Shown here: in pieces, positions 17,520 through 64,000 of the stretch | How the letters are laid out: each line of letters opens with the position of its first letter | How positions within the stretch are numbered: position 1 is the first letter of the stretch | Assembly: GCF_003002815.1 (NCBI RefSeq) | Contig: NZ_PVTF01000005.1 | Span: 496,001-560,000 of the forward strand | Length of the DNA: 64,000 bases | Source of the DNA: Umezawaea tangerina | GTDB taxonomy: Bacteria > Actinomycetota > Actinomycetes > Mycobacteriales > Pseudonocardiaceae | Reading direction: 5' to 3' | The notes under the pieces: generated by a model | The model's database searches: none | Seen by the model: the letters and a program-made list of their open reading frames with translations, nothing else | What the model was told of the DNA's origin: nothing | Translations under genes and position numbers: made by a program

Positions 17520-18248
17520 TCAGGATTCGGTGGTCCGGGCTGGTCGTGTGGCGGTTTGGCCGGGGTTTCGCCTGAGGTGGTCGAGGATTTCGCAGTCGCA
17601 CGAGCCCAGCACCTTCACCGCGGATCGGGAGAGCAGGTCCCAGGACAGTCCTCGGGCTTCGATCCAGTCCCGTGTGGCGGGGAAGGTGATCCGATGCTCG
17701 CACGCCGCGCTCGCCAGGCATTCCCGCAGGTGCTCCACGAGGACGTGCCGGTCCTCCGCCAACAGGCCGAGCCGCCGGTCCGCGCGTCGGACCCGGTCCG
17801 CGTAGAACTCCTCCCGCCGGGCGCGGGCAGCCTGGTCGGTCAGCCCGGCGGCCTGAAGCCGCGCCTCGAAGACGTTCACCCGGAACCGTTCCAGGGACAG
17901 GATGGTGGTGAAGGTGCCGTCGGTGGGAAGGACGGCGATCTCGTGCCCCTCACGGTGGAAGCGCTCGAACACCTCGCCCAGCAGCACGTCGACGTCGACC
18001 GGCACCGCCGGTTCGGCGTCCTCGAAACCCATCGCCTCGGCGGCCATCACAGCCAGCCGGGGATGCGGCCACAACGGGACCAGGGCGTTGTCCTGGTCGT
18101 CGATCTCCAGCAAACCGGTCTCGAAGTCCCACGCCCACACAGTTCCGGTGGCGGCGACCGTGGAGAAGAAGTACTCCTCACGACCGGGCTGGCCTCCGGC
18201 CCACAGTTCCCGGGCCTCGTCCTCCGACAACGAGGAGATCGTGGTCAT
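17520..18248 (-). CDS. Hypothetical protein, possibly DUF2750-like
   Basis: A 242-residue soluble protein. The first 120 residues (EEYFFSTVAATGTVWAWDFE, LVPLWPHPRLAVMAAEAMG, VLLGEVFERFHREGHEIAVLP) resemble the DUF2750 pattern with the W-P-H core. The C-terminal half is Arg-rich and helical, unlike the short family members. No catalytic motif is visible. It is single-gene, with IS remnants just downstream. Function unknown. Confidence 0.72.
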   Translation of the reverse strand: MTTISSLSEDEARELWAGGQPGREEYFFSTVAATGTVWAWDFETGLLEIDDQDNALVPLWPHPRLAVMAAEAMGFEDAEPAVPVDVDVLLGEVFERFHREGHEIAVLPTDGTFTTILSLERFRVNVFEARLQAAGLTDQAARARREEFYADRVRRADRRLGLLAEDRHVLVEHLRECLASAACEHRITFPATRDWIEARGLSWDLLSRSAVKVLGSCDCEILDHLRRNPGQTATRPARTTES

Positions 18249-49226: not shown

Positions 49227-49393
49227 CGCCTGTTTCGCCAGTCTCGTTCGATGGGAGTCGCACCGGAGGTGGTTCCTGGCGGTGCGGCCGAACGGGCCGC
49301 GCACCGCTGTTGTACGTGGTCCGTTCGACCGCGCCTCGAGGGGCCGCCTCCGGCCCGGCTATCGCGAACACGGACTGGCAAAACAGGCCCTAG
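49223..49393. mobile_element. 163-bp IS5-type miniature element with CTAG duplication
   Basis: The segment 49227-49389 is bounded by imperfect inverted repeats: GCCTGTTTCGCCAGTC at 49228-49243 against GCCTGTTTTGCCAGTC read inward from 49388 on the other strand. On both sides is CTAG (49223-49226, 49390-49393), matching the YTAR duplication of IS5-group elements. It contains no gene. Each flanking CTAG supplies the TAG stop of the adjacent convergent gene. Confidence 0.75.
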
Positions 49394-50844
49394 TCGCGCA
49401 GCCTGCTCACCACACCTTCGCAACTGCGCACCACGATCCGCGCCAGTTCGACGAAAGCCCGGCTGGACATGGGGCTCTCCGCCCAGCGCTGCCAGCGTGC
49501 CAGCACCGGCACCACGGCCTCGTGCTGTTCCTCCCGCGTCGCGTCCGGTCGCAGGGCGAGCCGGGACCACGCGGTGCTCCCCGCCCCGCCGAGCAGCCGT
49601 TCAGCCTCCGCCTTCGCGTCGGCAGGCATGTCCACCGTCCCCGAACGCACCACACCGATCGCGCGGAGTTCGGCGAACTCGTGCGCGTCGGCCAGCACGC
49701 GTTCGACAGCCGTCAACAGCGCCGCCGCCTCCGGGTTCCGACACTCCCGCAGCACCGTGTCCAGGGCCAGCAACGCCGAACGCGCCTTGAGCAGGTCGCG
49801 CCGCTCAGCGAACAGGACGGACAGCGTCTCGCGCAACTCGTCCAGACCGCTGCGGCGCACCAGTTCGGCGGCCAGGCGCGCGGGGTCGTCGAAGCCCTGC
49901 CGGATGAGCACCGTGGCGAGGCGGATCCCGAAGAGCCCGAACCTCGCGAGCAGCCGCGCGTGGTCCGGCCCGGCACGGGTGAACCTGTCCACCGACAGCA
50001 TCGCCGCCTCGATCTCGTCGCGCGGCGCCGCGGCGAGTGCGGCAAGTGCGGCGAACTCGTCCTGCCGAAGCGTGCGAGCGGTCTGCGCGATCAGCCCGGC
50101 GACCGGCACCACGGTCTGGCACAGCTTGCGCAGCCGCGGATCCGAGCGGTAGCGCTGGGCGATCCGCCGTGCGGACATCAGGGAATCGACCCGGCCGACG
50201 CCCACCTCGTCCGCGCGGGAGAGCACGGCGATGGTGTTGACGGGAGTCGCCCTGGCCACGCCGCGGTCGTGGAACGACTCCAGCAGCCCCAAGTCGGCGC
50301 TGTGCAGGTGGCGCATCAGGTAGATCACCGCGTCCGCGTCGCTCGGCTCGTCCTCCGGGGCCAGGAACCGGGTGGCCGCAGCGGAGACGTCGCCCGAGAT
50401 CGAGGCGATGCCAGGGGTGTCGATGAGCGTGGTGTCCCGCAGCCCCTGGGTCGGCCAGTCCACCGACAGGCGTTCGACGGCGTCCGGTGCGATGCCGTCG
50501 AGGTCGATGCGCAGTGCGCCGTCCACGCGGTTCACCGGCAGTTGCCGGGCCGACCCGTGGCGGGGGTGGAGGGTCACCCTCGGGCTGTGGCCGTGCCGGT
50601 ACCAGATGACCACGCGGGTGCACTCGCCCGCGTCGGTCGGCGCGATCTCCTCCCCCACCAACGCGTTGAGCAGGGTGGACTTGCCCGCTTTGACCTTGCC
50701 CGCGATGGCCACCCGCAGCGGCTCGTCCATGCGGTCGAGCTGCCTGCGCAACAGCTCGGCGGTCTCGACGTCGTCCCGGTAGACCTCGATCGCGTCGCGC
50801 AGCAAGGAGCGCACCTCACCGGCGAGGTGGTTCCTCCCGCTCAC
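49390..50844 (-). CDS. iniC: Dynamin-like GTPase, IniC-like
   Basis: A 484-residue dynamin-family GTPase: G1 AGKVKAGKSTLLNALVGEEI, a G2 Thr in CTRVVIWY, G3 LIDTPGIASISG, and a G4-like SRADE (NKxD variant). The helical C-terminal half lacks a strong membrane segment. This matches IniC, the shorter partner of the mycobacterial isoniazid-inducible iniBAC operon. The GTG start overlaps the IniA-like stop by 4 bp. Symbol by similarity of family and gene order, not by alignment. Confidence 0.82.
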   Translation of the reverse strand: MSGRNHLAGEVRSLLRDAIEVYRDDVETAELLRRQLDRMDEPLRVAIAGKVKAGKSTLLNALVGEEIAPTDAGECTRVVIWYRHGHSPRVTLHPRHGSARQLPVNRVDGALRIDLDGIAPDAVERLSVDWPTQGLRDTTLIDTPGIASISGDVSAAATRFLAPEDEPSDADAVIYLMRHLHSADLGLLESFHDRGVARATPVNTIAVLSRADEVGVGRVDSLMSARRIAQRYRSDPRLRKLCQTVVPVAGLIAQTARTLRQDEFAALAALAAAPRDEIEAAMLSVDRFTRAGPDHARLLARFGLFGIRLATVLIRQGFDDPARLAAELVRRSGLDELRETLSVLFAERRDLLKARSALLALDTVLRECRNPEAAALLTAVERVLADAHEFAELRAIGVVRSGTVDMPADAKAEAERLLGGAGSTAWSRLALRPDATREEQHEAVVPVLARWQRWAESPMSSRAFVELARIVVRSCEGVVSRLRD

Positions 50845-52640
50845 CGCGTCGTCCCGACCCGGTCGACCAGCGCGTCGGCGGCCGTGGCGAGATGCGCGAT
50901 GCGGTCCAGTTCGGCCCGCACGTCCCGGATCCGCTTGTCCCGCTCACCGCGGTCGGAGTCGACCGCGCGCTGCGCGGACTTCATCGACTCGCTGAGCGAT
51001 CGGGACAGTTCCGCGGCGCAGCCGGTGAAGTGGTCTCGCAGGTCGCGCTGGAGTTCGCGCAGCACGTCCCTCGACTCCTTGCCGAGTTGGAACCCCACGT
51101 CGTCGACGAAGCGCCGCACGGCGAGCTTGGCCTCCGACCGCCTGCGTTCCAGCATGCGTTTGCGCTCGTCCTTGACCACCTTGCGGCCCAGCAGCACACC
51201 CGCGGCCACCGAGATCGGGTTGAGCAGGGCGAGCCCACCGATCGTGCTCAACATGCCGATCATGAGCGTGCCGCCGTAGCCGCCGCGAAGGCCCACGATC
51301 AACTTCTGCCCGAGGCCGAACGCCTCCGGCCTGCCGAACTCGAGCGGGATCGTCTGGCTGAGAGGAGCCGCCGGGTCGTGGGCGTGCAGGTCCGGCAGCA
51401 CCCCGCCACCGTCGTCGGCGAAGTGGTCGCCGACCTGTCCGGCCAGCCACCGCGCGCGCTGGTTGGTCCACACGAAGTTCGCCGACGCGGCGGCGGCCAC
51501 CCGCTGCAGGACCCAGCCGACGAACTGCTCCTCCACCAGCATCGGATCGATCCCGTCCAGCTCGGCTTCGGCGTCCCGCGTGATCTTGCGCATCCGGTCG
51601 CGCAGGTCGTACTCGACATCCGAGATCAAGTCGCCGACACCGTCGTTGAGGGTCTGCTGCCATCGCGCCGAGCGCTCCCGCAGGGCGTCGGCCCGCCGCT
51701 TGGCGTCGCGCAGCCGCGACAGGAGGTCCTCGGCGCGGTCCGGGTCCCGCAGAGCCGTCAGCTCGGCCCCCATCGCGGTGGTGAGCTGCAGGGCCACCCC
51801 GCGCACGTCGTGCACGACGGACCGGGTGGCCAGTTCCGCGGCCCGCCCGACGATGCGGTCGCGCAGGTGGTTGAGCAACAGGGGAAAGCCGGACTCGTGG
51901 TTCAGCGCCTGGTCGCCCTCGCGCACGGCGTGCAAGCGCAGCACCGAGGACACCGGCAGCAGGTCCGCGGAGAGGTCGGCGGCGGCCAGGTGCGCGAGGT
52001 CGCGCTCGGCGATCCGCCGCCAGTCCGGGTACAGGTCGATCTTCGTGAGGACGCACACGACGGTCGGGCACACCCGCGCCGCCTGCCGCAGGAACTCCAG
52101 CTCGGTGGCCGTGTACTCCTGCGCCGCGTCGGAGACCATGAGCACGGCGTCCGCGGACGGCAGCGCGGTCATCGTCGTCGCGCCGTGCACCGAACCCAGC
52201 CCACCCACACCGGGGGTGTCCACCAGGCACAGACCACCGGCCAGCACCGAACGCGGGATGCCGACCTCCGCGTGCCGCAGCCCGCGCCGGTTGCCGGGGT
52301 TGCCCGCCTCGGACACGTAGTCGGCGAGCTGCTCCACCGGCACTTCGGTACGCACCGCCGTCTCGCCGACCAGGACCACGTTCGGGGACTCCGCGTAGCG
52401 CACGACCGTGGGCACCGCGGTGGCCACGTCGTCGTCCACCGGGCACACCGGGGCGTTGACGAGGGCGTTGACCAGGTGGCTCTTGCCCTGCTTGAACTCC
52501 CCCACGACGAGCACGCGCACAGCCGGGTCCAACAGCCGCTGCCTGGTCTGCGCCAGCCGAACAGCCAGGTCATCACGGTCGTAGGCGGTCGCGGCCTTCA
52601 ACGCGAGGTCGACCACCTCGATCGGCGTCCGTCCACTCAC
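50841..52640 (-). CDS. iniA: Dynamin-like GTPase, IniA-like
   Basis: A 599-residue bacterial dynamin: G1 VVGEFKQGKSHLVNALVNAP, Thr switch TAVPTVVRYAE, G3 CLVDTPGVGGLGSVHGATT, G4 LTKIDLYPDW. Long coiled helices follow, and near residue 480 a hydrophobic hairpin (LMIGMLSTIGGLALLNPISV, AAGVLLG) suited to membrane insertion, as in IniA, which mediates membrane fission. The GTG start at 52640 follows GGAGAGGAG; the frame further upstream is shadow of the repetitive gene. Confidence 0.87.
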   Translation of the reverse strand: MSGRTPIEVVDLALKAATAYDRDDLAVRLAQTRQRLLDPAVRVLVVGEFKQGKSHLVNALVNAPVCPVDDDVATAVPTVVRYAESPNVVLVGETAVRTEVPVEQLADYVSEAGNPGNRRGLRHAEVGIPRSVLAGGLCLVDTPGVGGLGSVHGATTMTALPSADAVLMVSDAAQEYTATELEFLRQAARVCPTVVCVLTKIDLYPDWRRIAERDLAHLAAADLSADLLPVSSVLRLHAVREGDQALNHESGFPLLLNHLRDRIVGRAAELATRSVVHDVRGVALQLTTAMGAELTALRDPDRAEDLLSRLRDAKRRADALRERSARWQQTLNDGVGDLISDVEYDLRDRMRKITRDAEAELDGIDPMLVEEQFVGWVLQRVAAAASANFVWTNQRARWLAGQVGDHFADDGGGVLPDLHAHDPAAPLSQTIPLEFGRPEAFGLGQKLIVGLRGGYGGTLMIGMLSTIGGLALLNPISVAAGVLLGRKVVKDERKRMLERRRSEAKLAVRRFVDDVGFQLGKESRDVLRELQRDLRDHFTGCAAELSRSLSESMKSAQRAVDSDRGERDKRIRDVRAELDRIAHLATAADALVDRVGTTR

Positions 52641-52768
52641 CGCCGCTCCTCTCCGCCAGACGGGACACGCGGCGACCGCGTCACCCCGAGGCGTTCGGGG
52701 CGACGCGGTGCGACCGCTGTGGCCAAGGGAAGGACATCCGGGGACATCCCGCCACTCGAACCGGTGGT

Positions 52769-53950
52769 TCAGACGAGGACGATGGGGAGCTCGACGTCGA
52801 GGTCGACATCGTTGTTGGACAAGATGTCGGTCTCGGTGTTGAACGAGTCCTCGACCTCCACGCTGTTGTCGATGTTCGTCTCCGGCTCGAAGTTGAACGA
52901 GTCCTCGACCTCGACGCTGTTGTCGATGTCCGTGTCGGTCTCGGTGTTGAAGGAGTCGTCGACATCGACGTCGAGGCTGTTGTCGGTGTTGAACGAGTCG
53001 TCGACGTCGATGCTGTTGTCCGTGTTGAACGAGTCGTCGACATCGATGCTGTTGTCGGTGTCGGTCTCGGTGTTGAACGAGTCGTCGATCTCGACGCTGT
53101 TGTCCGTGTTCGTCTCGGTCTCGGTGTTGAACGAGTCGTCGACATCGACGCTGTTGTCGGTGTCGTGCGAGTCCTCGTACCGCCAATCATGGGAGTCGTT
53201 CTGGGTGGTGTCGCTGCCGTTGCTGGCGACCGCGACGTTGCCGGAGCCGTAGGCCGCCACATCGGTCGAGTAGTCGTTGGCCTCGTACTCGCCCGACGCC
53301 GCCCCTCCACCGATCGACACGGCGCTGCCGGTGGCCGCGGAGACCGAACCCACGTGGTTCACGTCGTTGCCGTCGCCCACGACGTTGCCGTCGCCGGTGG
53401 TCACCGTGCCGTCGATGTCGTCGCCTGCGGCGACCGCGCCATCACCCGAGGCGACCACCGGGTCGTTGTCGAACCACTGCACCACGTCGCCGTCCGCCCA
53501 GATGTTCTGGTTCACGGAGTTGTCCAGAACCGTGTTGTGGCTGTCGCTCCACGAGTAGTTCTGGGTGATGTAGTTGATCTCCTGGATGGCTCCGTCCATC
53601 CCGCCGTCGCCACCACCACCGTGACCACCACCGCTGTCGCCACCACCACCGTGACCACCACCGCTGTCGCCACCACCACCGTGACCACCACCGCCGTCCG
53701 AAGGCGGCGGAGGCGTGTGGTGCACCTGGGTGGTGTTGCCCCCACCGTTGAGCTCGCGGTCGAAGGAGCTGCTGTGCGCCGCCTGCACGTTGTCCACGAT
53801 CAACGGCCGCGCGTCTCGCACGTCGTCGGCGCACAGGCCGTCGAAACCGTTCTCCCGCAACACCTGGTGGGGGCTCGCGGTGAACTCGGCACGGGCACTG
53901 TCGTCGCCGAGCAGCTGGAGGATGAACTGCAGAAGGCTCATGTTGGGCAT
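52769..53950 (-). CDS. iniB: IniB-like protein with acidic Asn/Asp repeats
   Basis: A 393-residue protein. The N-terminus (SLLQFILQLLGDDSARAEFT, ASPHQVLRENGFDGLCADDV) is the IniB N-terminal domain. A Gly/His-rich block follows (three copies of GGGGDSGGGH). Then comes a beta-like Gly/Asp/Asn region, and lastly about seven copies of DNSxDVDDSFNTET at the C-terminus (DNA 52806-53163). No signal peptide is obvious. Very acidic, low-complexity and likely surface- or envelope-associated or scaffold-like. ATG 53950 follows GAGGAAAGG; GTG 53959 is possible. Confidence 0.82.
   Translation of the reverse strand: MPNMSLLQFILQLLGDDSARAEFTASPHQVLRENGFDGLCADDVRDARPLIVDNVQAAHSSSFDRELNGGGNTTQVHHTPPPPSDGGGGHGGGGDSGGGHGGGGDSGGGHGGGGDGGMDGAIQEINYITQNYSWSDSHNTVLDNSVNQNIWADGDVVQWFDNDPVVASGDGAVAAGDDIDGTVTTGDGNVVGDGNDVNHVGSVSAATGSAVSIGGGAASGEYEANDYSTDVAAYGSGNVAVASNGSDTTQNDSHDWRYEDSHDTDNSVDVDDSFNTETETNTDNSVEIDDSFNTETDTDNSIDVDDSFNTDNSIDVDDSFNTDNSLDVDVDDSFNTETDTDIDNSVEVEDSFNFEPETNIDNSVEVEDSFNTETDILSNNDVDLDVELPIVLV
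52806..53163 (-). repeat. Coding repeats: DNSxDVDDSFNTET motif
   Basis: About seven imperfect copies of a 36-51-nt unit encoding DNS(V/I/L)(D/E)(V/I)(D/E)DSFN, varying in the TET/TDT spacer. The nucleotide similarity between units indicates recent tandem expansion. Confidence 0.8.
53608..53697 (-). repeat. Three tandem 30-bp coding repeats
   Basis: Three almost identical 30-bp units starting at 53608, 53638 and 53668, encoding the Gly/His-rich decapeptide of the IniB-like protein. Only the penultimate codon of the last unit differs. Confidence 0.9.
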
Positions 53951-53984
53951 CGGTCGCACCTTTCCTCGGGGAAGATGACATCAC

Positions 53985-53994
53985 GCTACGTAGC
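53985..53994. promoter_or_regulatory. Palindrome GCTACGTAGC upstream of iniB
   Basis: A perfect 10-bp palindrome 35 bp upstream of the iniB start, in the divergent region shared with the Hsp70 gene; a candidate regulator site. Confidence 0.4.
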
Positions 53995-54205
53995 AAATCC
54001 CGGCGTGCCATCGGTGTGTCCCCCTGGTTCTCCAAGCCGATCAATGGGGGATTTGAGTGCCCGGTTAGGGGATCCGGACCGCGACCGCTTCAAAAAGTTG
54101 GGGGTTCACCTGGGCTAATGATGGTGCGAGTGACTGCGATACTCCATATGGACGAGCCGGAACACTTGCCGGAACGACTGGGCGCGGTAGCGCGCTCCAG
54201 GTGAC

Positions 54206-54224
54206 CGTACGTCACTGTCGTACG
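54206..54224. promoter_or_regulatory. Repeated CGTACG palindromes before hsp70-like gene
   Basis: CGTACG occurs at 54206-54211 and 54219-54224, seven bases apart, 22 bp before the Hsp70 ATG. Each is self-complementary, so the pair is both a direct and an inverted repeat. Candidate operator. Confidence 0.4.
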
Positions 54225-54245
54225 TCCGAATGGAGGGACGAGCGG

Positions 54246-56024
54246 ATGTCCTACGTGCTGGGTGTCGACCTCGGAACGACGTTCACAGCAGCCGCGATCT
54301 GCCGCCGGGAGGCAGGCGATTGGGGGAAGGTGGAGGTGCTGCCGCTCGGCTCGAGGGCCGCCGCGGTGAGCTCGGTGTTGTTCTTCGGCCTGAACGCGGC
54401 GGTGCTGTTCGGTGACGCGGCCGAGCGCCGCGCGCTCGCCGCTCCGGACGGCGTGGCGAGGGAGTTCAAGCGCCGCATCGGCGACAGGACTCCGCTGCTG
54501 CTCGCGGGCGAGCCGCACACCGCCCACGAACTGGCCGCCCGGCTGGCTCGCTGGGTGGTCGACCGGGCGATCGAGCGCGAAGGCAGTGCGCCCGAGCAGG
54601 TCGCCATCACCCACCCGGCCGGGTGGGGCGAGCACAAGAAGAGCCTGCTGGTCGACGCGCTGTCCGAGGTCGGACTCGGTGACGCGAGACTGCTCAGCGA
54701 ACCGGAGGCGGCGGCGTTCGACTACAGCAGCGCCGAGCGGGTCGAGCCGGGCAGCGTCATCGCCGTGTACGACTTGGGCGGCGGCACGTTCGACGCGGCA
54801 GTGGTCCGCAAGGTCGACGACACCCGGTTCGAACTGCTCGGCGAGCCCACCGGCGTCGACCGGCTCGGCGGCGTCGACTTCGACGAGGCCGTCTTCGAAC
54901 ACCTGCGCGCGACCGTCGCCAAAGGACTCGACGACCTGGCCCCGGACGACCCGGTGGCGATGTCCGCGGCCGCACGACTTCGCCGTGAGTGCACCGAGGC
55001 CAAGGAAGCTCTCTCCACGGACACCGAGGTCACCATTCCGGTCCTGCTGCCCAGCGGGCACACCCAGGCGCGAATGGTGCGCGGCGAGTTCGAGGCGATG
55101 ATCCGGCCCGCGCTGGACGAGACCGTCGAGCTGCTGCGCGCCACCATCCGTTCGGCGGGCGTGGCGGAGTCCGAACTCGACGCCGTGCTCCTGGTCGGCG
55201 GGTCGTCGCGGATACCTCTGGTCAGCCAGCTGCTGTCGCAGCAGCTCGGTCGCGCCGTCGCTGTGGACAGCGACCCGAAGAGCACCGTCGCGCGGGGTGC
55301 CGCCAGGGCTGTCGTCCCCGTCGTGCAACGCGTGGCCCCCGCCCAACAGCCTCCCGACGAGCCGAGCAGTCCACCAGCACGACCGGAAATCGCGGACATC
55401 CCGTTGGTGGTGTCACCGCCGTCCACAGCGCGCCGGCGTGTACTGAGGCCACGGGTCCTGGTGGGAGCGGCGGGGCTCGCCGTGAGCGGGATCGTCGCCA
55501 TGGGCATCCACACCGTGAGCGACGTCGCGTCGACCAGTTCAGACCTGGCGCCGGCCACCCAGGTGGCCGCGGAGCAACCGGCACCGATGCCTCCCGCCCA
55601 GGTACCCGTCGACGAGCAGAAGTCGCCTGCTGTAGGACAGCTCCCACCGCCCAGTCCGACGACGCAGGCGACCAACCGCAGGGCCAAGCCCGAACCGAAC
55701 ACCCCCGACGCGGGCCTGCCGACCACCGACACCTCAGCCGCAGCGCCCCGCTCGACCAGCACGCCGACAACGGATACCAAACCGTCGTTGCGGCAATCGC
55801 CGCCGACGACCCAGGCCCCGCCGTCAACGACCCAAAACCCACCACCGCAGAGCGAGAACCCACCACCCACCACACAAGACCCGCCACCGACCACTCAGGA
55901 CCCACCGCCCACCACGCAGGATCCCCCGCCCACGACTGAGGACCCACCGCCCACCACACAGAACCCACCACCCACGACCGAGGACCCACCACCCACCACA
56001 CAGGACCCGCCACCGACGACGTGA
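54246..56024 (+). CDS. Membrane-anchored Hsp70-family protein with PPPTT repeat tail
   Basis: A 592-residue protein. Residues 1-370 are the Hsp70 ATPase: LGVDLGTTFTAAAICR (phosphate 1), VAITHPAGWGEHKKSLLVDA, LSEPEAAAFDYS, VYDLGGGTFDAAVVRK (phosphate 2) and AVLLVGGSSRIPLVSQLL (adenosine). The peptide-binding domain is absent. Instead there is a single membrane segment near 415-432 (VLVGAAGLAVSGIVAMGIHT) and a Pro/Thr/Gln extracytoplasmic tail ending in eight DPPPTTQ-like heptads. ATG 54246 follows GGAGGG. Divergent from iniB: a cytosolic sensor linked to the wall side is a reasonable inference. Confidence 0.9.
   Translation: MSYVLGVDLGTTFTAAAICRREAGDWGKVEVLPLGSRAAAVSSVLFFGLNAAVLFGDAAERRALAAPDGVAREFKRRIGDRTPLLLAGEPHTAHELAARLARWVVDRAIEREGSAPEQVAITHPAGWGEHKKSLLVDALSEVGLGDARLLSEPEAAAFDYSSAERVEPGSVIAVYDLGGGTFDAAVVRKVDDTRFELLGEPTGVDRLGGVDFDEAVFEHLRATVAKGLDDLAPDDPVAMSAAARLRRECTEAKEALSTDTEVTIPVLLPSGHTQARMVRGEFEAMIRPALDETVELLRATIRSAGVAESELDAVLLVGGSSRIPLVSQLLSQQLGRAVAVDSDPKSTVARGAARAVVPVVQRVAPAQQPPDEPSSPPARPEIADIPLVVSPPSTARRRVLRPRVLVGAAGLAVSGIVAMGIHTVSDVASTSSDLAPATQVAAEQPAPMPPAQVPVDEQKSPAVGQLPPPSPTTQATNRRAKPEPNTPDAGLPTTDTSAAAPRSTSTPTTDTKPSLRQSPPTTQAPPSTTQNPPPQSENPPPTTQDPPPTTQDPPPTTQDPPPTTEDPPPTTQNPPPTTEDPPPTTQDPPPTT
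55857..56022 (+). repeat. Tandem heptad coding repeat DPPPTTQ
   Basis: About eight 21-bp units encoding (D/N)PPPTT(Q/E) at the end of the Hsp70-like gene; the units are nearly identical at nucleotide level. Confidence 0.85.
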
Positions 56025-57544: not shown

Positions 57545-57682
57545 ATGGCGAATCCGCCTTGCTTCACAGTGGCAACAGATGACGGTCGAGACTGGACCAT
57601 ATGGGTGGGGTGCGACAGGACTGACGTCATCGCCGATCACCACCGTTGTCCTGACGGTGACGGTCTCTCTCGGCGAAGGTGA
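57545..57682 (+). CDS. Small hypothetical protein upstream of recombinase
   Basis: A 45-residue frame (ANPPCFTVATDDGRDWTIWV, then GCDRTDVIADHH) that ends six bases before the recombinase ATG, with the ribosome-binding site of the recombinase at its 3' end. Two Trp and two Cys are suggestive, but no family is recognised. It could also be chance. Confidence 0.3.
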   Translation: MANPPCFTVATDDGRDWTIWVGCDRTDVIADHHRCPDGDGLSRRR

Positions 57683-57687
57683 GCATC

Positions 57688-59061
57688 ATGACCACGGCCC
57701 TGTACGACGACCACGCGTTCAGCAGTTGGATCGGACGTGACACACCCAAGACGCGCAGACGTGCGAGTCACCGTGCGCCGGACGGACTTCGGTTCGCCTT
57801 CTACGGCCGTGCCTCCACCGTCGAGCACCAGGACCCGGCGACATCCGAGGGCTGGCAACGCGAAGCAGCCGAGCACCTGGTCGCCGGACACGGCCGGATC
57901 GTGGCGTCGTACTTCGACGTCGGCAGCTCCCGACGTCTCCCCTGGCGACACCGACCCCATGCCGCGGAACTCCTGGCCGCGTTGGCGGATCCGGACCGGG
58001 GCTTCGATGCAATCGTGGTCGGGGAGTACGAACGGGCCTTTGCCGCCGACCAGTTCCAGCGCATGGCCCCGCTGTTCCGCCGCCATGGCATCCAGATCTG
58101 GTTACCCGAGGCCAACGGGCCGGTCGATCCGGGCAGTCTCATGCACCAAGCCCTCATGAACGTGCTCGGCGCCCAATCACATCGCGAGGTCCTGCGAGCC
58201 CGTCACCGAGCACTGGCGGCGATGCGCATCCAGGTCGCGAACCAAGGCCGCTACCTCGGCGGTCGACCGCCCTACGGATACCAGCTCGTCGACGCGGGCC
58301 CGCACCCGAACCAGGCCGACTCGAAATGGGGACGACGCCTGCGCCGCCTGGCCGAGGATCCCGAGACCGCCCGCCACGTGCGATGGATGTTCACCGAGCG
58401 ACGGTCCGGTCGCAGCGTGGCCGGAATTGCGCGGGCCCTCAACGAGAAGAACGTGCCGTGCCCCTCCACCGTCGCCCCCGCGCGCAACGCCCATCGCAGT
58501 GGGGTGTTGTGGACGGTGCGGTCGGTGGCGACAATCCTGGAGAACCCGCGCTACACCGGCTGGCAGGTGTGGAACCGCCACAGCGCCGACCACGACGCGT
58601 CCACCGACCGGCGCAAAGTCGTTCACCAGCGGACCATCCGACAGGACTGGGTCGTGTCCAAGCAGCGCACCCACGCTGCCCTGGTCAGCGAGCAGGACTT
58701 CGTCGCGGTCCAGGGCATGCGCTCAGCGCGGCCGACCGGCGACGGCAGCATCCGCACTTACCACCTGTCAGGACTGCTGCGATGCGGTGTCTGCGATCGT
58801 CGAATGGACTCACACTGGGTGCATGGGCATGCCGGATACCGGTGTCGTCATGGTCATTCGAGCAGCCGGACCCGGACACCGGATACTCCCCTGCCGCTGT
58901 ACCTTCGCGAGGAATTGCTGATCACCAGGATCGGCGTTCACCTCGCCCGAGACGATCACGAGGATCGACCGACTCCTGCGGAGATTGCTACGTTCCTGCA
59001 CGTCAACGCGATGACAGTCACCTGCTACACCGACCGTATCGCCATCGGAAGCCAGCCCTGA
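57688..59061 (+). CDS. Large serine recombinase
   Basis: A 457-residue site-specific recombinase. The resolvase domain has RFAFYGRASTVEHQDPATS with the nucleophile Ser, then IVVGEYERAFAADQFQRM. The Recombinase domain follows (GGRPPYGYQL, RWMFTERRSGRSVAGIARAL, TVRSVATILENPRYTGWQVW), then a zinc ribbon (LRCGVCDRRM ... YRCRHGH). It is complete. Such enzymes integrate phages and islands. It stands between IS debris and low-G+C genes, suggesting it mobilised or once mobilised the adjacent segment. Confidence 0.92.
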   Translation: MTTALYDDHAFSSWIGRDTPKTRRRASHRAPDGLRFAFYGRASTVEHQDPATSEGWQREAAEHLVAGHGRIVASYFDVGSSRRLPWRHRPHAAELLAALADPDRGFDAIVVGEYERAFAADQFQRMAPLFRRHGIQIWLPEANGPVDPGSLMHQALMNVLGAQSHREVLRARHRALAAMRIQVANQGRYLGGRPPYGYQLVDAGPHPNQADSKWGRRLRRLAEDPETARHVRWMFTERRSGRSVAGIARALNEKNVPCPSTVAPARNAHRSGVLWTVRSVATILENPRYTGWQVWNRHSADHDASTDRRKVVHQRTIRQDWVVSKQRTHAALVSEQDFVAVQGMRSARPTGDGSIRTYHLSGLLRCGVCDRRMDSHWVHGHAGYRCRHGHSSSRTRTPDTPLPLYLREELLITRIGVHLARDDHEDRPTPAEIATFLHVNAMTVTCYTDRIAIGSQP

Positions 59062-59070
59062 AACACGAAA

Positions 59071-59098
59071 ATCCGGACCGCAAAATTGCGATCCGGAT
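59071..59098 (+). terminator. Terminator after serine recombinase
   Basis: The arms 59071-59083 and 59086-59098 (ATCCGGACCGCAA / TTGCGATCCGGAT) pair over 13 positions with one mismatch around a two-base loop, just after the recombinase stop. Confidence 0.65.
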
Positions 59099-59196
59099 CC
59101 GTGGGGTAAAAACGTGACCGAGGCCGGACTTGCGCACTACTCACCCGCATAGCCCTCCCCGGACCTGAGTAGGCTCACCTGTCCCGATCACGCTTC

Positions 59197-59232
59197 AGGC
59201 CCGTCCCGCCGATGGTCACGCGGGACGGGCCT
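59197..59232. terminator. Strong 12-bp hairpin
   Basis: AGGCCCGTCCCG (59197-59208) and CGGGACGGGCCT (59221-59232) are perfectly complementary with a 12-nt loop, followed by CTTACGTT. It resembles a Rho-independent terminator but no gene end lies right before it, so it may be left over from the ancestral locus. Confidence 0.55.
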
Positions 59233-59621
59233 CTTACGTTAAGCCTGACGCTGTCACCAGTCCGAACGCCGAATAGGACACGGGACAAGTAGGTCAGTTG
59301 TCCCTAAAATCGACACTGCGATGGTCTCTGACCACGCCAAGACAGCACTCTGCTGACTCAGCTAGTCCAACATCCCCACGCCAGGAACTTCAGGGCCGCA
59401 GGTGTCTAACCAGTACAAGCGGTGCAAGATCGCCTTGCCCAGGACGCGCATGGCAGACTTGCAGACATCGACCCATCTACACATAGACCACACATGCGCA
59501 AGCCAAGAAACACAACAAACAAGCACCCGAATTGCACGATCAACTCGAATTAAAAGCAATCTTGCAATACTACTTGTCATGCCCTCCTGCAACTGCCTGC
59601 TCCCTGAGGCATAATGTACTG

Positions 59622-60842
59622 ATGCACACCGACCACCTGTTCGATTCAGGCAAGCTTAGCGAGTACCTTCGCAAACGCGCCCATGCAGTTCGAGAGCGGC
59701 TCCTATCGTGGTCACCGGACTATGTCCTCGGCACCTCGGACATCGACCTCATCGAACAGCTTAAGATGGAGGCATTGATAGAATGTCCTGTGCTGGTTCG
59801 TGATCGAGTCAGCCTAGAGGAACCCGTTGAAGAAGTCCGGCGGTACATCAGACACGGCGATACATTCAGTCGGCGTGTCACTTCTTACACTCTTATCGTC
59901 CCGTTCACTGGTCACGCCAACGTCTTCCGCTTGGAAGCTCAAACGTACAGCACATCACCACCAAAGGGCGAACTCGCGTCAAATGGGCAACAAATCCTCT
60001 TAAAATATGACGACGAACGATCTGATGGCGCAGAAATAAGATCGCATTTCGATCGGACTCTCGACGAAATCGAGACTATCTTGACATGGGCCAGAGATGA
60101 TATTCGACAACATCAATGGAACATTGAACACGAACTTCCAAGACTTGTGGACGAGCGACGAACAAAACTGTTGAACGATCGAAAAGCTCAAGAAAAAATT
60201 GGCTTTCCCATCAAACGTCGTGACGACGCCGCTTCATACACTGTACCGATTGAGCGCGTCACATTTGCAACCGAAAGGACGCAAAGTTCACCAAGATCAA
60301 GCAGCGTATTCAAGCCCGAGCCCGCGCTCGCGGACAACGATTACGAAAGTGCTCTCGCCGTTCTGCGAAACGCGCGGAATGCGCTTGAGCGCACACCATC
60401 GGTTGCAGCAGGCTGGGACGAGGAAGAGATTAGAAACTTCTTGCTGATATTTCTCAATGCCCAGTTCAAAGGCCAGGCCGCAGGCGAGGTATTCAATCGA
60501 GCAGGCAAAACAGACATCTTGATCCGGACCGATGACGCCAATATATTTATCGGCGAGTGCAAGATTTGGAAAGGGCCAAAAACTATCTCGAACGCTCTCG
60601 ACCAATTGCTCGGTTACCTGGTTTGGCGTGATACTAAGGCCGCACTTCTCTTATTCATCCGCGACGGCGACATCTCTGCTGTGATGCAGAAAGCCGTGGC
60701 ACAGGTGGAGACACATCCAAACTACAAGAGCCGTGGACAGATCATGAGCGAAGAACGGCACGACTTCATCATCCATGCTAAAGATGACTCAGCTCGAGAA
60801 ATTCAACTCGCACTGCTACCCTTCCTCATCCCCAAGCGTTGA
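59622..60842 (+). CDS. PD-(D/E)xK nuclease-like protein, candidate defence gene
   Basis: A 406-residue protein. Residues 1-280 are mostly helical and not recognised. The C-terminal domain has GKTDILIRTDDANIFIGECK: Asp298, Glu312 and Lys314 form the D...ExK site of restriction-endonuclease-fold nucleases, followed by LDQLLGYLVWRDTKAALLLF. I recall this C-terminal pattern from uncharacterised bacterial proteins, not from a named nuclease. ATG 59622 is the first ATG of the conserved-looking part. Codon use is A/T-rich and unlike the host. The next gene starts 222 bp downstream on the same strand. Confidence 0.82.
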   Translation: MHTDHLFDSGKLSEYLRKRAHAVRERLLSWSPDYVLGTSDIDLIEQLKMEALIECPVLVRDRVSLEEPVEEVRRYIRHGDTFSRRVTSYTLIVPFTGHANVFRLEAQTYSTSPPKGELASNGQQILLKYDDERSDGAEIRSHFDRTLDEIETILTWARDDIRQHQWNIEHELPRLVDERRTKLLNDRKAQEKIGFPIKRRDDAASYTVPIERVTFATERTQSSPRSSSVFKPEPALADNDYESALAVLRNARNALERTPSVAAGWDEEEIRNFLLIFLNAQFKGQAAGEVFNRAGKTDILIRTDDANIFIGECKIWKGPKTISNALDQLLGYLVWRDTKAALLLFIRDGDISAVMQKAVAQVETHPNYKSRGQIMSEERHDFIIHAKDDSAREIQLALLPFLIPKR

Positions 60843-61064
60843 CAGGTCGATTCAACCGTGAGCCGATTCAACCGCGAGCAGATGAGTACCTTTAGAATGA
60901 CTATTCGACTATACGACAATGCTCCGACGCTGAAGTAGCGTCACAATGATCATGACCGTGTCCCTGATCAACCGAGTGCGCCTTCACAACCTTGCCATGC
61001 CTTCGCGGAAATCAGCGATGGGTGCAAAACATGCCGTCCTTCAGCAAGCACGCTATCATGCGCC

Positions 61065-64000
61065 ATGACCACTTGGCCTCCATTTACTCGAAACGATCTG
61101 CAACTTGCGGCCGATTCGGTTTCTTTCGACTCAGTTTTACCTATTTTGATCCGTAAATTGATCACCGAAACTACGCCCAACCTAACAGAGATTGATATGC
61201 CCGGCGGTTCTGGAACCTCCGCCGGAGGCTTTGATGGCGTAGTCGTCAATTCCAGTAGCACCGCCTTTGTTCCAGAAGGAATTTCCGTATGGGAATTGTC
61301 CGTCGAAAAGGCCACTAAGGCCAAAGCGGATAGCGACTACGGGAAACGACTCCAAGGACCGAACGGCGAAGCGTGTGCTGAGGTTACCTATATCCAAACT
61401 ATTCTTCGCCCTTGGACAAAAGCGCGCGAATGGAAAAACTCTCGCCGCCAAGAGGGTCGATGGAAAGATGTCCGGGCATACAATCTCGACAGCATACATA
61501 CCTGGCTGGAGTCAGCTCCGGCTACAACTACCTGGCTAGCAGATCAACTGGGAAAGAGGGTGCCAGGAGTAATTTCCGCAGATGATTGGTGGGATAACTT
61601 TTGGTTGCCGTCAACTAGTGTTCCATTGACTACTGAGATTGTTCTCAGCGGACGAGATAGTGCCTCCGCCGAACTGATCGACTCTTTGCTTCCTGGACGG
61701 GTGATCACGCTTGGCGGAGGCTTACGATTCGATGAGTTACGAGCGTTTATCACCGCTGCAGTTCGAACATCAACGGACACGAAGTCGAAATCGCTTCGGA
61801 CGCGGACTCTTTTTGTGGAATCAATAGATAGCATGAGTCAGCTGATGCGACAGAATCAGCCTCTGGTGATGGTTATAGCAGATGCGTCCTGGCTCTCAAC
61901 TGTCACGGTCAAGGCACCGCACACGGTGATAGTGGCTGCCCTTCCAGGTCAGACCGGTGCACCAGATGTCCCTCCCGTCGACAGTGAAGCAGTCACTCAG
62001 CAACTAGTGAAGGTTGGCGTGCCAGATGAGCGTGCGTATGTTTGGGGGCATCTTGCACGTCGTAGCCTGCTAGCACTCCGACGTGTATTAGCGGTCAATC
62101 AAGCGCAGCTCACGCCGGGTTGGGCACATAGTCCAAGTTCAGCCCAGCGTCGACTTCTACTCTTGGGCAGTTGGGAAGGTACCAACTCGAATGACCGTGC
62201 CATAGTCACCAAGATGGCAGGTCTCGCCTACGACGCCGTGCCAGATTTTGTTACAAGCCTAACGGCTGCCTCGGATATCCCCTTCATGGGACAATTTCGA
62301 GAACAATGGCATATCCTTGCACCAGAAGATTCTTGGACTCTCCTAAAAACTCACATCACTCATGACGACTTGAACCTACTGAGAACGACAATCTCGGAGG
62401 TATTCGGCACAGAACAAAGGGTGAGCTTTTCAGTAACCTTGCGTAGAGGGCTGGCGCAAACACTGGCGCTGCTCGGTGCAATGGGCGAGGACATTCGCCT
62501 ACCAAAAGGTGGCACCGGCAAAAATTTCTGCCGTGCCATAGTTGCCGAATTTTTGGCGTCAGCCAACAACGACCCATCTTATCGACACTGGTCATCTCTT
62601 GGCGATGTTCTCCCTCTATTCGCGGAAGCCGCCCCTCAAGAATTCATTGACGCACTGCGACGTGGATTGGAAGGCGACGAACCGCTACATCGATATATGT
62701 TTCAAGATGTCGAGCCAGGCGAGTTCGGATTTACTCCATCGTCCACACACAACCATGTCCTGTGGGCATTGCAGACAATCGCATGGTCAGAGGATCACTT
62801 TCTCGATGTCATCGAAATTTTGGCTCAATTGGCGGCGATAGACCCTGGAGGCCAATGGTCAACACGACCGAACACGACGCTGCAAGACATGATGAGCTGT
62901 TGGCATCCCAGCACAGCTGCATCAGATTCAGCACGCCGTACTGGCTTGCGGCTAATAATGCGAGTTCAGCCGGAAGTGGGTCGACATCTTCTACTTGCCC
63001 TAATACCGACTGGACGCGAGATTCAGTCACCTACAGTTAAGCCTGAGTTCAGGGACTGGACTAGGTCGGTTGTTGTCACGCGCGCCGATATCGTCAGTGG
63101 AGTAGATTATGTCGTCGACATGATCCTCGACGATCTTGGCAGTGACATCAATCGCCATCTGGCCTTGTTGACAAAGTTTGAGGCATTAACGCCGCAACGT
63201 CGAGTATCGTTTGTAGAAAAGCTTGTCGCACTCAATTCAAAAGCGACCAATGACGCCGTTCGTGGTCAGATCGCTGACGCTATCCGCCAAAAAATCGCTC
63301 GTCACAGAGAATATGCCGACACACAATGGGCGCTTCCCGAATCTGAGCTAACATCCCTTGAACAGGCGGGCCAAACACTGGCGCCCACTTCGACTGTTTG
63401 GCGTTCACGATGGCTGTTCGACAGCGACGTGGTCGAATTAGGCGACTTGAGCAGAAGAGATGATTTTGCATCGTATGAGACGGAATTATCTACTCGACGA
63501 GCGGACGCCGTTAGGGCAGTCATCGAATCTGGTGGGGTAGAAGCAATAGCAGAGCTGACCGACCATGTCTCTCGCCCATATTTCGTCGGATATTTCCTTC
63601 TGGAACAGAATAGTGAATTCGACCAAGTCATGATCTCATGGCTACGCGAAGGACAAAACCGGCAGCAGGCCGCGCGCGGGTACCTGCGGGCTCGCCTGCG
63701 GTGCGCAGACGATACCATCTACGACCAGCTACTTTCCTACGCTCAGGATGCTACAGCCAAGGCAGAGATACTTCACGTCCTAGGTGAGCCCGGAAAGGCT
63801 TGGCAGAAACTATCGGAACTAGATGAGGATGTAAAAAGGGAATATTGGGCTGGATTTGTTTATCATGGCCTCGGTGCAGAATTTTCAGAAGTTGCACACG
63901 CCGCAGAAAATCTGCTTGATATCGGCCGCATTGCTGCCGCACTCGACATGATAGCTCTCTACTCTAATAAAGTCACTTCATTAGAGGTCGCGGAAATTGC
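61065..64000 (+). CDS. Very large uncharacterised protein, N-terminal nuclease-like motif (3' partial)
   Basis: A frame from ATG 61065 with no stop to the window end, at least 978 residues. N-terminus: GGFDGVVVNSSSTAFVPEGI then WELSVEKATKAKADSDYGKR. This D58...E77-L-S with nearby Lys residues recalls a PD-(D/E)xK variant. A segment at about 200-240 (TEIVLSGRDSASAELIDSLL, GRVITLGGGLRFDEL) sits where a STAND-type P-loop would be but lacks GK(S/T). The rest is helical and repeat-like. I recognise the overall layout only from hypothetical proteins of genomic islands. It follows the nuclease-like gene and shares its low G+C. Confidence 0.8.
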   Translation, partial: MTTWPPFTRNDLQLAADSVSFDSVLPILIRKLITETTPNLTEIDMPGGSGTSAGGFDGVVVNSSSTAFVPEGISVWELSVEKATKAKADSDYGKRLQGPNGEACAEVTYIQTILRPWTKAREWKNSRRQEGRWKDVRAYNLDSIHTWLESAPATTTWLADQLGKRVPGVISADDWWDNFWLPSTSVPLTTEIVLSGRDSASAELIDSLLPGRVITLGGGLRFDELRAFITAAVRTSTDTKSKSLRTRTLFVESIDSMSQLMRQNQPLVMVIADASWLSTVTVKAPHTVIVAALPGQTGAPDVPPVDSEAVTQQLVKVGVPDERAYVWGHLARRSLLALRRVLAVNQAQLTPGWAHSPSSAQRRLLLLGSWEGTNSNDRAIVTKMAGLAYDAVPDFVTSLTAASDIPFMGQFREQWHILAPEDSWTLLKTHITHDDLNLLRTTISEVFGTEQRVSFSVTLRRGLAQTLALLGAMGEDIRLPKGGTGKNFCRAIVAEFLASANNDPSYRHWSSLGDVLPLFAEAAPQEFIDALRRGLEGDEPLHRYMFQDVEPGEFGFTPSSTHNHVLWALQTIAWSEDHFLDVIEILAQLAAIDPGGQWSTRPNTTLQDMMSCWHPSTAASDSARRTGLRLIMRVQPEVGRHLLLALIPTGREIQSPTVKPEFRDWTRSVVVTRADIVSGVDYVVDMILDDLGSDINRHLALLTKFEALTPQRRVSFVEKLVALNSKATNDAVRGQIADAIRQKIARHREYADTQWALPESELTSLEQAGQTLAPTSTVWRSRWLFDSDVVELGDLSRRDDFASYETELSTRRADAVRAVIESGGVEAIAELTDHVSRPYFVGYFLLEQNSEFDQVMISWLREGQNRQQAARGYLRARLRCADDTIYDQLLSYAQDATAKAEILHVLGEPGKAWQKLSELDEDVKREYWAGFVYHGLGAEFSEVAHAAENLLDIGRIAAALDMIALYSNKVTSLEVAEI

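Follow-up and report, generated by a model that had tools for sequence, protein, structure and literature searches.

Avs and other NLR-like STAND immune proteins share a modular architecture, with an exchangeable N-terminal effector, a central core and a long helical C-terminus. Shedu-like proteins are single proteins with a C-terminal PD-(D/E)XK site. Here we describe two neighbouring genes, designated A and B, near the right end of a 64,000-nucleotide stretch of the Umezawaea tangerina genome (contig NZ_PVTF01000005.1, positions 496,001 to 560,000; hereafter the window). At a probability of about 0.68, sequence comparison points to A and B as anti-phage genes, independent of each other, that an actinomycete integrative element carries as cargo, with B a single-gene, NLR/Avs-like modular immune protein.

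Gene B showed the likeness to Avs/NLR-like STAND proteins in all three parts, its predicted model consisting of helices after residue 420; it differed from them in having neither a classical Walker A motif nor a PADLOC model match. Gene A shared with Shedu its single-protein form and the C-terminal position of its PD-(D/E)XK site; it differed in that its sole PADLOC match at E ≤ 1 was PDC-S54, to which it matched over nearly the full length with no difference found. In PADLOC, PDC stands for phage defence candidate (PMC13356809, citing Payne and others, bioRxiv 2024). PMC10952713 lists PD-Lambda-4 with a P-loop nucleoside triphosphatase (NTPase), which sets it apart from B, and B itself had no PD-Lambda-4_A match; the name PD-Lambda-4 was not found in the text of PMC9519451. 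The carrier resembles an actinomycete integrative and conjugative element (AICE). PMC11706625 reports diDNase genes inside AICEs in 16% of cases and close to defence systems in 41.9%; a link between AICEs and accessory defence-like genes is therefore partly in print.

A variable cargo slot holds genes A and B

A serine recombinase gene (R1, 460 aa; 57679..59061, plus strand), called as an open reading frame (ORF), formed the left end of the carrying element, as it did in related elements; its product matched Pfam Recombinase (1.1e-18) and Zn_ribbon_recom (2.5e-6). Gene A followed on the same strand (59622..60842; 406 aa from the ATG, or 436 aa from a TTG at 59532). Gene B began 222 nt further on, also on the plus strand (61065..64000 in the window, covering the first 978 residues), and encoded a nuclease-like N-terminus, a degenerate NTPase-like core and a helical solenoid. 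Its frame, open at the window end, continued on the contig to a stop at window-equivalent 64805 (L002 2065-5805), giving a full length of 1246 aa. The G+C content was 0.513 for A and 0.526 for B, against 0.672 for the recombinase and 0.679 for the whole window. A first-pass annotation of the window had described a recombinase followed by two same-strand genes of lower G+C, a nuclease site in A, a giant B carrying a nuclease-like motif, and a mobile-island setting. Each of these held, the setting being an integrative-element slot with swapped contents.

Swapping was observed in a congener (G295), whose R1 was 93% identical to that of the window. The two genomes matched at 57573-59296 (91.9% identity) and again at window-equivalent 65535-75003 (91.5%). 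Between these flanks, the 6.2 kb containing A and B gave way to 4.9 kb of different sequence, most of it low in G+C, and the slot accordingly runs from 59297 through 64000 and on to window-equivalent 65534. The congener slot contained a ThsA macro-domain gene (PF20016, 1.6e-52; PADLOC ThsA, 2e-78), nucleotidyltransferase-like and metallophosphoesterase genes with weak PADLOC matches (8.2e-6 and 1.9e-4), and a DUF4062-TPR gene with a partial match to PDC-S60 (5.2e-14). This four-gene cargo (L089:6182-10323) is possibly a candidate Thoeris variant. Elsewhere in the three genomes of the genus, strong matches to the locus were confined to the recombinase part.

We fetched 15 more R1 regions from the host family. 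Four of them contained the two recombinases, the two Nudix-like genes and the genes for the 200-aa and FtsK-like proteins, and were kept as slot evidence; the other 11 (L183-L185, L190-L197) lacked most of this backbone and were discarded. The four slots held a UG33 reverse transcriptase (L187; DRT UG33, 3.1e-192), an AIPR/AbiU protein with a pentapeptide protein (L188), an AIPR/AbiU protein with Vsr (L186), and a GmrSD_N/NsnA-like protein (L189; 1.7e-31). The two AIPR/AbiU matches had E values of 2.1e-29 and 1.2e-29, and Vsr 1.4e-9. PADLOC matches were obtained for 5 of the 8 slot proteins scanned in these four elements and for none of the other 3. Thus, one or more defence genes, known or candidate, were present in each of the six elements compared, the window's included.

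Another 20 regions were found through the gene adjoining the slot, and ORFs of at least 150 aa with a G+C of 0.60 or less within 7.5 kb were counted. Eighteen had such an ORF at the slot and two (L208, L221) had none; neither A nor B was present in any of the 20. When the 44 low-G+C slot ORFs were pooled, PADLOC matches included AbiU (1.5e-167) and RT_UG17 (3.3e-137) and, at 1e-8 or better, RTasSLATT, mad6, Stk2/PD-T4-6, PDC-M68A and endonuclease effectors; these are among the best 25 of 71 families and apply to the pool as a whole, in which some of the ORFs are perhaps spurious. With defence genes as the other cargo of the slot, location supports the defence logic proposed in the first-pass annotation. 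A literature search turned up no description of the slot or of the B family, the B body having no name to search by.

Genes A and B occur apart

In the order, B (E ≤ 0.001) was found in 8 of 200 genomes, one of these matches being weak and 80 residues long, and PDC-S54 was found in 4. Among 394 genomes of the class, the counts were 6 for B (G000, G396, G574, G387, G484 in two frames and G304 in fragments) and 7 for PDC-S54; 29 of the 35 class genomes matching the B profile had been discarded because the match was confined to the N-terminal helix-turn-helix (HTH) region (positions ~5-111). Only the window's own genome (G000) had both genes in either set. Gene A was present in 0/70 B loci (up to 10 kb on each side where the contig allowed), and B in 0/21 A loci (276 kb in total). 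Plasmids gave a similar picture: 22 carried B, 23 carried A and 44 carried either, with both on a single plasmid (Rhizobium tropici CIAT 899), 28 kb apart. Given this lack of co-occurrence, the best reading of the pair is that of two neighbouring cargo genes.

Gene B belongs to a family with exchangeable N-termini

Relatives of B were recovered, by record names, from Actinomycetota, Pseudomonadota, Bacteroidota, Chloroflexota, Verrucomicrobiota, Planctomycetota and others. A single-protein search found no close viral relatives; two viral relatives were found with alignment A2 as the query. Across the 70 loci, the N-terminus was of the window's nuclease-like type (GWDG...WExG) in 54, TIR-like in 10, a fused second nuclease-like type in 3 and split in 3, the classes being assigned with profiles made from members of the same set. 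A common helical body was shared across the module types. In the nuclease-type rows of alignment A5, the GGFDG...WELS motif of B was conserved, with D57 in 42/42, E77 in 41/42 and K87 in 41/42 rows.

TIR_2 exceeded the Pfam cut-off in two of the three TIR-group N-termini scanned (L138, L149), and the third (L154) had no Pfam match. The second nuclease-like type had the signature FSTGGGG...VQA...DDLIVF...QVKH and no Pfam match; we take it to be a Cap4-like nuclease. In the split form (L139, L157, L159), the effector-like domain was encoded by a separate ORF just upstream, whose end overlapped the start of the body ORF by ~18-21 bases. Many relatives carried an extra N-terminal HTH, and HTH_3 matched 7 of the 14 members of alignment A1.

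No identity in Pfam, PADLOC or NCBIfam was accepted for B; the few matches (E 0.075-0.12) were weak and far under the curated cut-offs. Of the PD-Lambda-4_A models (PADLOC PDLC03991/03990), PDLC03991 gave weak matches in 6 of 14 B relatives, with a best E value of 5.5e-5. The match in L034 was colinear, residues 599-740 aligning with positions 596-738 of 1283 (E 5.2e-4). The weak matches hint at a distant kinship with the B family. PD-Lambda-4 members were found in none of the 100 genomes scanned, a scan whose controls also gave no match.

The predicted structure of B is a helical body without a classical P-loop

An AlphaFold2 model of B (residues 1-978, 51 sequences) had a mean predicted local distance difference test score (pLDDT) of 89.9 and a predicted template modelling score (pTM) of 0.76. 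An alpha/beta N-terminus was followed by a second alpha/beta part (~198-291), a helical part with short strands to residue 417, and helices only from there on. In the model, D57 borders the strand 58-62, E77 lies in the strand 72-79 and K87 in the helix 84-94.

At the P-loop position, the family had the pattern GR...L...L.....v.a.s.eEa.AF, with GR in 45/51 rows and GK[ST] in none of the 51 rows of the aligned core. The classical Walker A motif GxxxxGK[ST] was absent from all 77 B-family ORFs of the 70 loci, and the looser [AG]xxxxGK[ST] gave four scattered matches in 4/77. The first-pass annotation had spoken of a 'long helical, STAND-like body': the model agrees with a helical, receptor-like body, and the lack of a classical Walker A takes away from the STAND part of the description. 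A sequence search of the B-family profile against solved structures returned HTH proteins and weak, chance-like rows.

Gene A matches a phage defence candidate

Gene A matched PDC-S54 with 435 bits (8.4e-131), residues 31-435 of the 436-aa ORF aligning with positions 1-408 of the 410-position profile; its nearest relatives begin near the ATG at 59622. D298, E312 and K314, which make up the C-terminal PD-(D/E)XK site, were invariant in all 11 aligned sequences, gene A included. No Pfam nuclease model matched gene A, its sequence search against solved structures gave nothing convincing, and a literature search on the name PDC-S54 found no paper. Gene A most likely encodes a single-protein PD-(D/E)XK nuclease. 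The locus had been put forward as undescribed; this does not apply to A, already in PADLOC. B has no convincing Pfam, NCBIfam or PADLOC match, and its family of receptor-like proteins with exchangeable effector domains is little described.

PDC-S54 relatives were also encoded on eleven IMG/VR contigs (L162-L172), so that contigs of a virus-like or mis-assigned mobile kind are a further vehicle of gene A.

The carrying element has a recombinase at each end

Downstream of B, the contig encoded an XRE regulator with DUF5753, a pair of related HTH proteins, a protein of 200 aa, another that was FtsK-like, and a second serine recombinase. Outside the window genome, and among the related elements compared, the DUF5753 regulator was found in the congener only. 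Both HTH proteins had a Nudix-like motif by eye and no Nudix match in Pfam. The FtsK-like protein matched FtsK_SpoIIIE (E 0.0031, 17.4 bits) under the Pfam cut-off of 24, and its gene was 78-98% identical across five related elements. Recombinase 2 (L002 15879-17642; Pfam Recombinase, Resolvase) overlapped a tRNA-Leu(gag) gene (17624-17706). R1, adjoining A and B, is part of the carrying element, whose opposite end is recombinase 2 at tRNA-Leu.

A possible attachment-site remnant lay at 59115..59132 (plus strand), where 16 of 18 bases equalled the end of this tRNA gene. The BLAST E value was 8.9, at chance level in the region searched; because of this the remnant is not significant alone, and position is its sole support. 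Searches for tRNA genes were negative for the window and for the retrieved portion of the congener element (L089, ending inside recombinase 2). The carrier is like an AICE in its recombinase at a tRNA gene, its XRE/DUF5753 regulator and, more tentatively, its FtsK-like protein. It differs in having serine recombinases at both ends, against the tyrosine integrase listed in PMC11706625, and in that no Rep was identified.

To the left of the element, window 49390-56024 contained two GTPase-like genes on the minus strand and, on the plus strand, one gene for a 396-aa protein rich in Asp/Asn and another for an Hsp70-like protein whose tail is rich in Pro/Thr. By reading of the ORFs, these look like an ini-type dynamin/chaperone cluster.

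Neighbours of B relatives

HsdR or HsdM genes of type I restriction lay within 10 kb in 5/70 B loci (L098, L139, L140, L143, L159), and HsdR overlapped the end of the B-family gene in L143. HsdR of L143 and HsdM of L139 were confirmed by Pfam, and the remaining Hsd genes were assigned by BLAST clustering. On some of the 22 plasmid records with B, the gene adjoined ParA/ParB or conjugation genes. Five Amycolatopsis loci (L150, L151, L153, L154, L158) had a conserved cluster in which a TIR-group relative accompanied genes for a small protein and a ParA-like ATPase. In L150, L151 and L154, the gene directly upstream of the TIR-group relative encoded a ~1030-aa P-loop protein of the DUF87/AAA type; therefore, a P-loop partner may replace the lost P-loop in those loci.

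Discussion

If A and B are independent anti-phage cargo genes, we infer a course of sensing, assembly, DNA cutting and phage protection. The C-terminal helical solenoid of B would recognise a phage-made trigger. The central body, with its STAND-like layout and no classical P-loop, would hold the N-terminal effector off, and the molecules would assemble once triggered. The nuclease-like domain would then cut DNA and stop the infection, often along with the cell; sister proteins would use a TIR-like or other nuclease-like domain for the effector step. The product of gene A would most likely work by itself, as a PD-(D/E)XK nuclease preceded by an N-terminal region that senses.

The first-pass annotation had instead proposed that A and B form one defence system, an exact pair in which B would sense and A, together with B's own domain, would cut DNA. 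A single strand, a 222-nt spacing, an equally low G+C and a common slot agree with this proposal, which is quite unlikely all the same: as far as the genomes, loci and plasmids searched can tell, the pair is not co-conserved, an outcome that the annotation itself had named as refuting. It is also unlikely, to a lesser degree, that B serves the mobile element in stability, entry exclusion or regulation rather than in phage defence. The N-terminal HTH of relatives, HTH_3 in half of alignment A1 included, could be the mark of an element regulator, and the plasmid-borne copies beside ParA/ParB or conjugation genes point the same way; the exchange of TIR-like modules, the type I restriction genes near five loci and the defence genes that form the other cargo of the slot do not. 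Another idea is that B needs no protein trigger and acts directly on incoming DNA, as a restriction factor that binds the DNA and wraps it with its solenoid. It draws on the nuclease-like N-terminus, the HEAT-like solenoid and the HTH of many relatives; sister proteins that combine this body with a TIR-like domain are easier to reconcile with a triggered effector than with direct cutting, and we consider this the least probable of the readings.

Several points weigh against independent anti-phage cargo and an NLR/Avs-like B. The putative defence role is drawn from location and module exchange; the apparent defence richness of the slot comes from counts within the slot, and the module classes come from the family's own profiles. 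B matched no PADLOC family at E ≤ 1, nor at E ≤ 10. Its motif spacing (D-x19-E-x9-K, with no ExK) is unlike the textbook D-ExK, and the suggested NTPase ancestry of its body is read from position and predicted topology. The best 50 Foldseek rows against PDB were mostly HEAT-type solenoids (CRM1, CAND1, PP2A scaffold) with template modelling scores by query of 0.08-0.24, and such low values leave B with no solved whole-chain relative among them; human SAMD9, at rank 2 (E 1e-4), proves nothing for B. No constant partner of nuclease-type B emerged when the genes of its diverse neighbourhoods were clustered, and several of these genes were housekeeping- or transposition-like on reading, so a defence-island context is not general. 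Finally, A and B, adjacent on one strand with 222 nt between them, may be transcribed jointly here.

A broader proposal can be made only tentatively and at less than even odds: the B family may be a widespread, unnamed class of immune receptors built like NLRs from an exchangeable effector, an NTPase-like core and a helical sensor, with the P-loop lost family-wide, travelling in the serine-recombinase AICE defence slot among other places. In such a class, loss of the P-loop throughout the family would imply switching without a nucleotide cycle.

If B is an NLR/Avs-like immune protein carried as independent cargo, it would add a large receptor-like family that is missing from the defence catalogue used in this analysis. 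The exchange of effectors on a body lacking a classical P-loop would be a test of the need for nucleotide switching in NLR-like immunity, and the slot in these elements would be a ready place for collecting more actinomycete defence genes.

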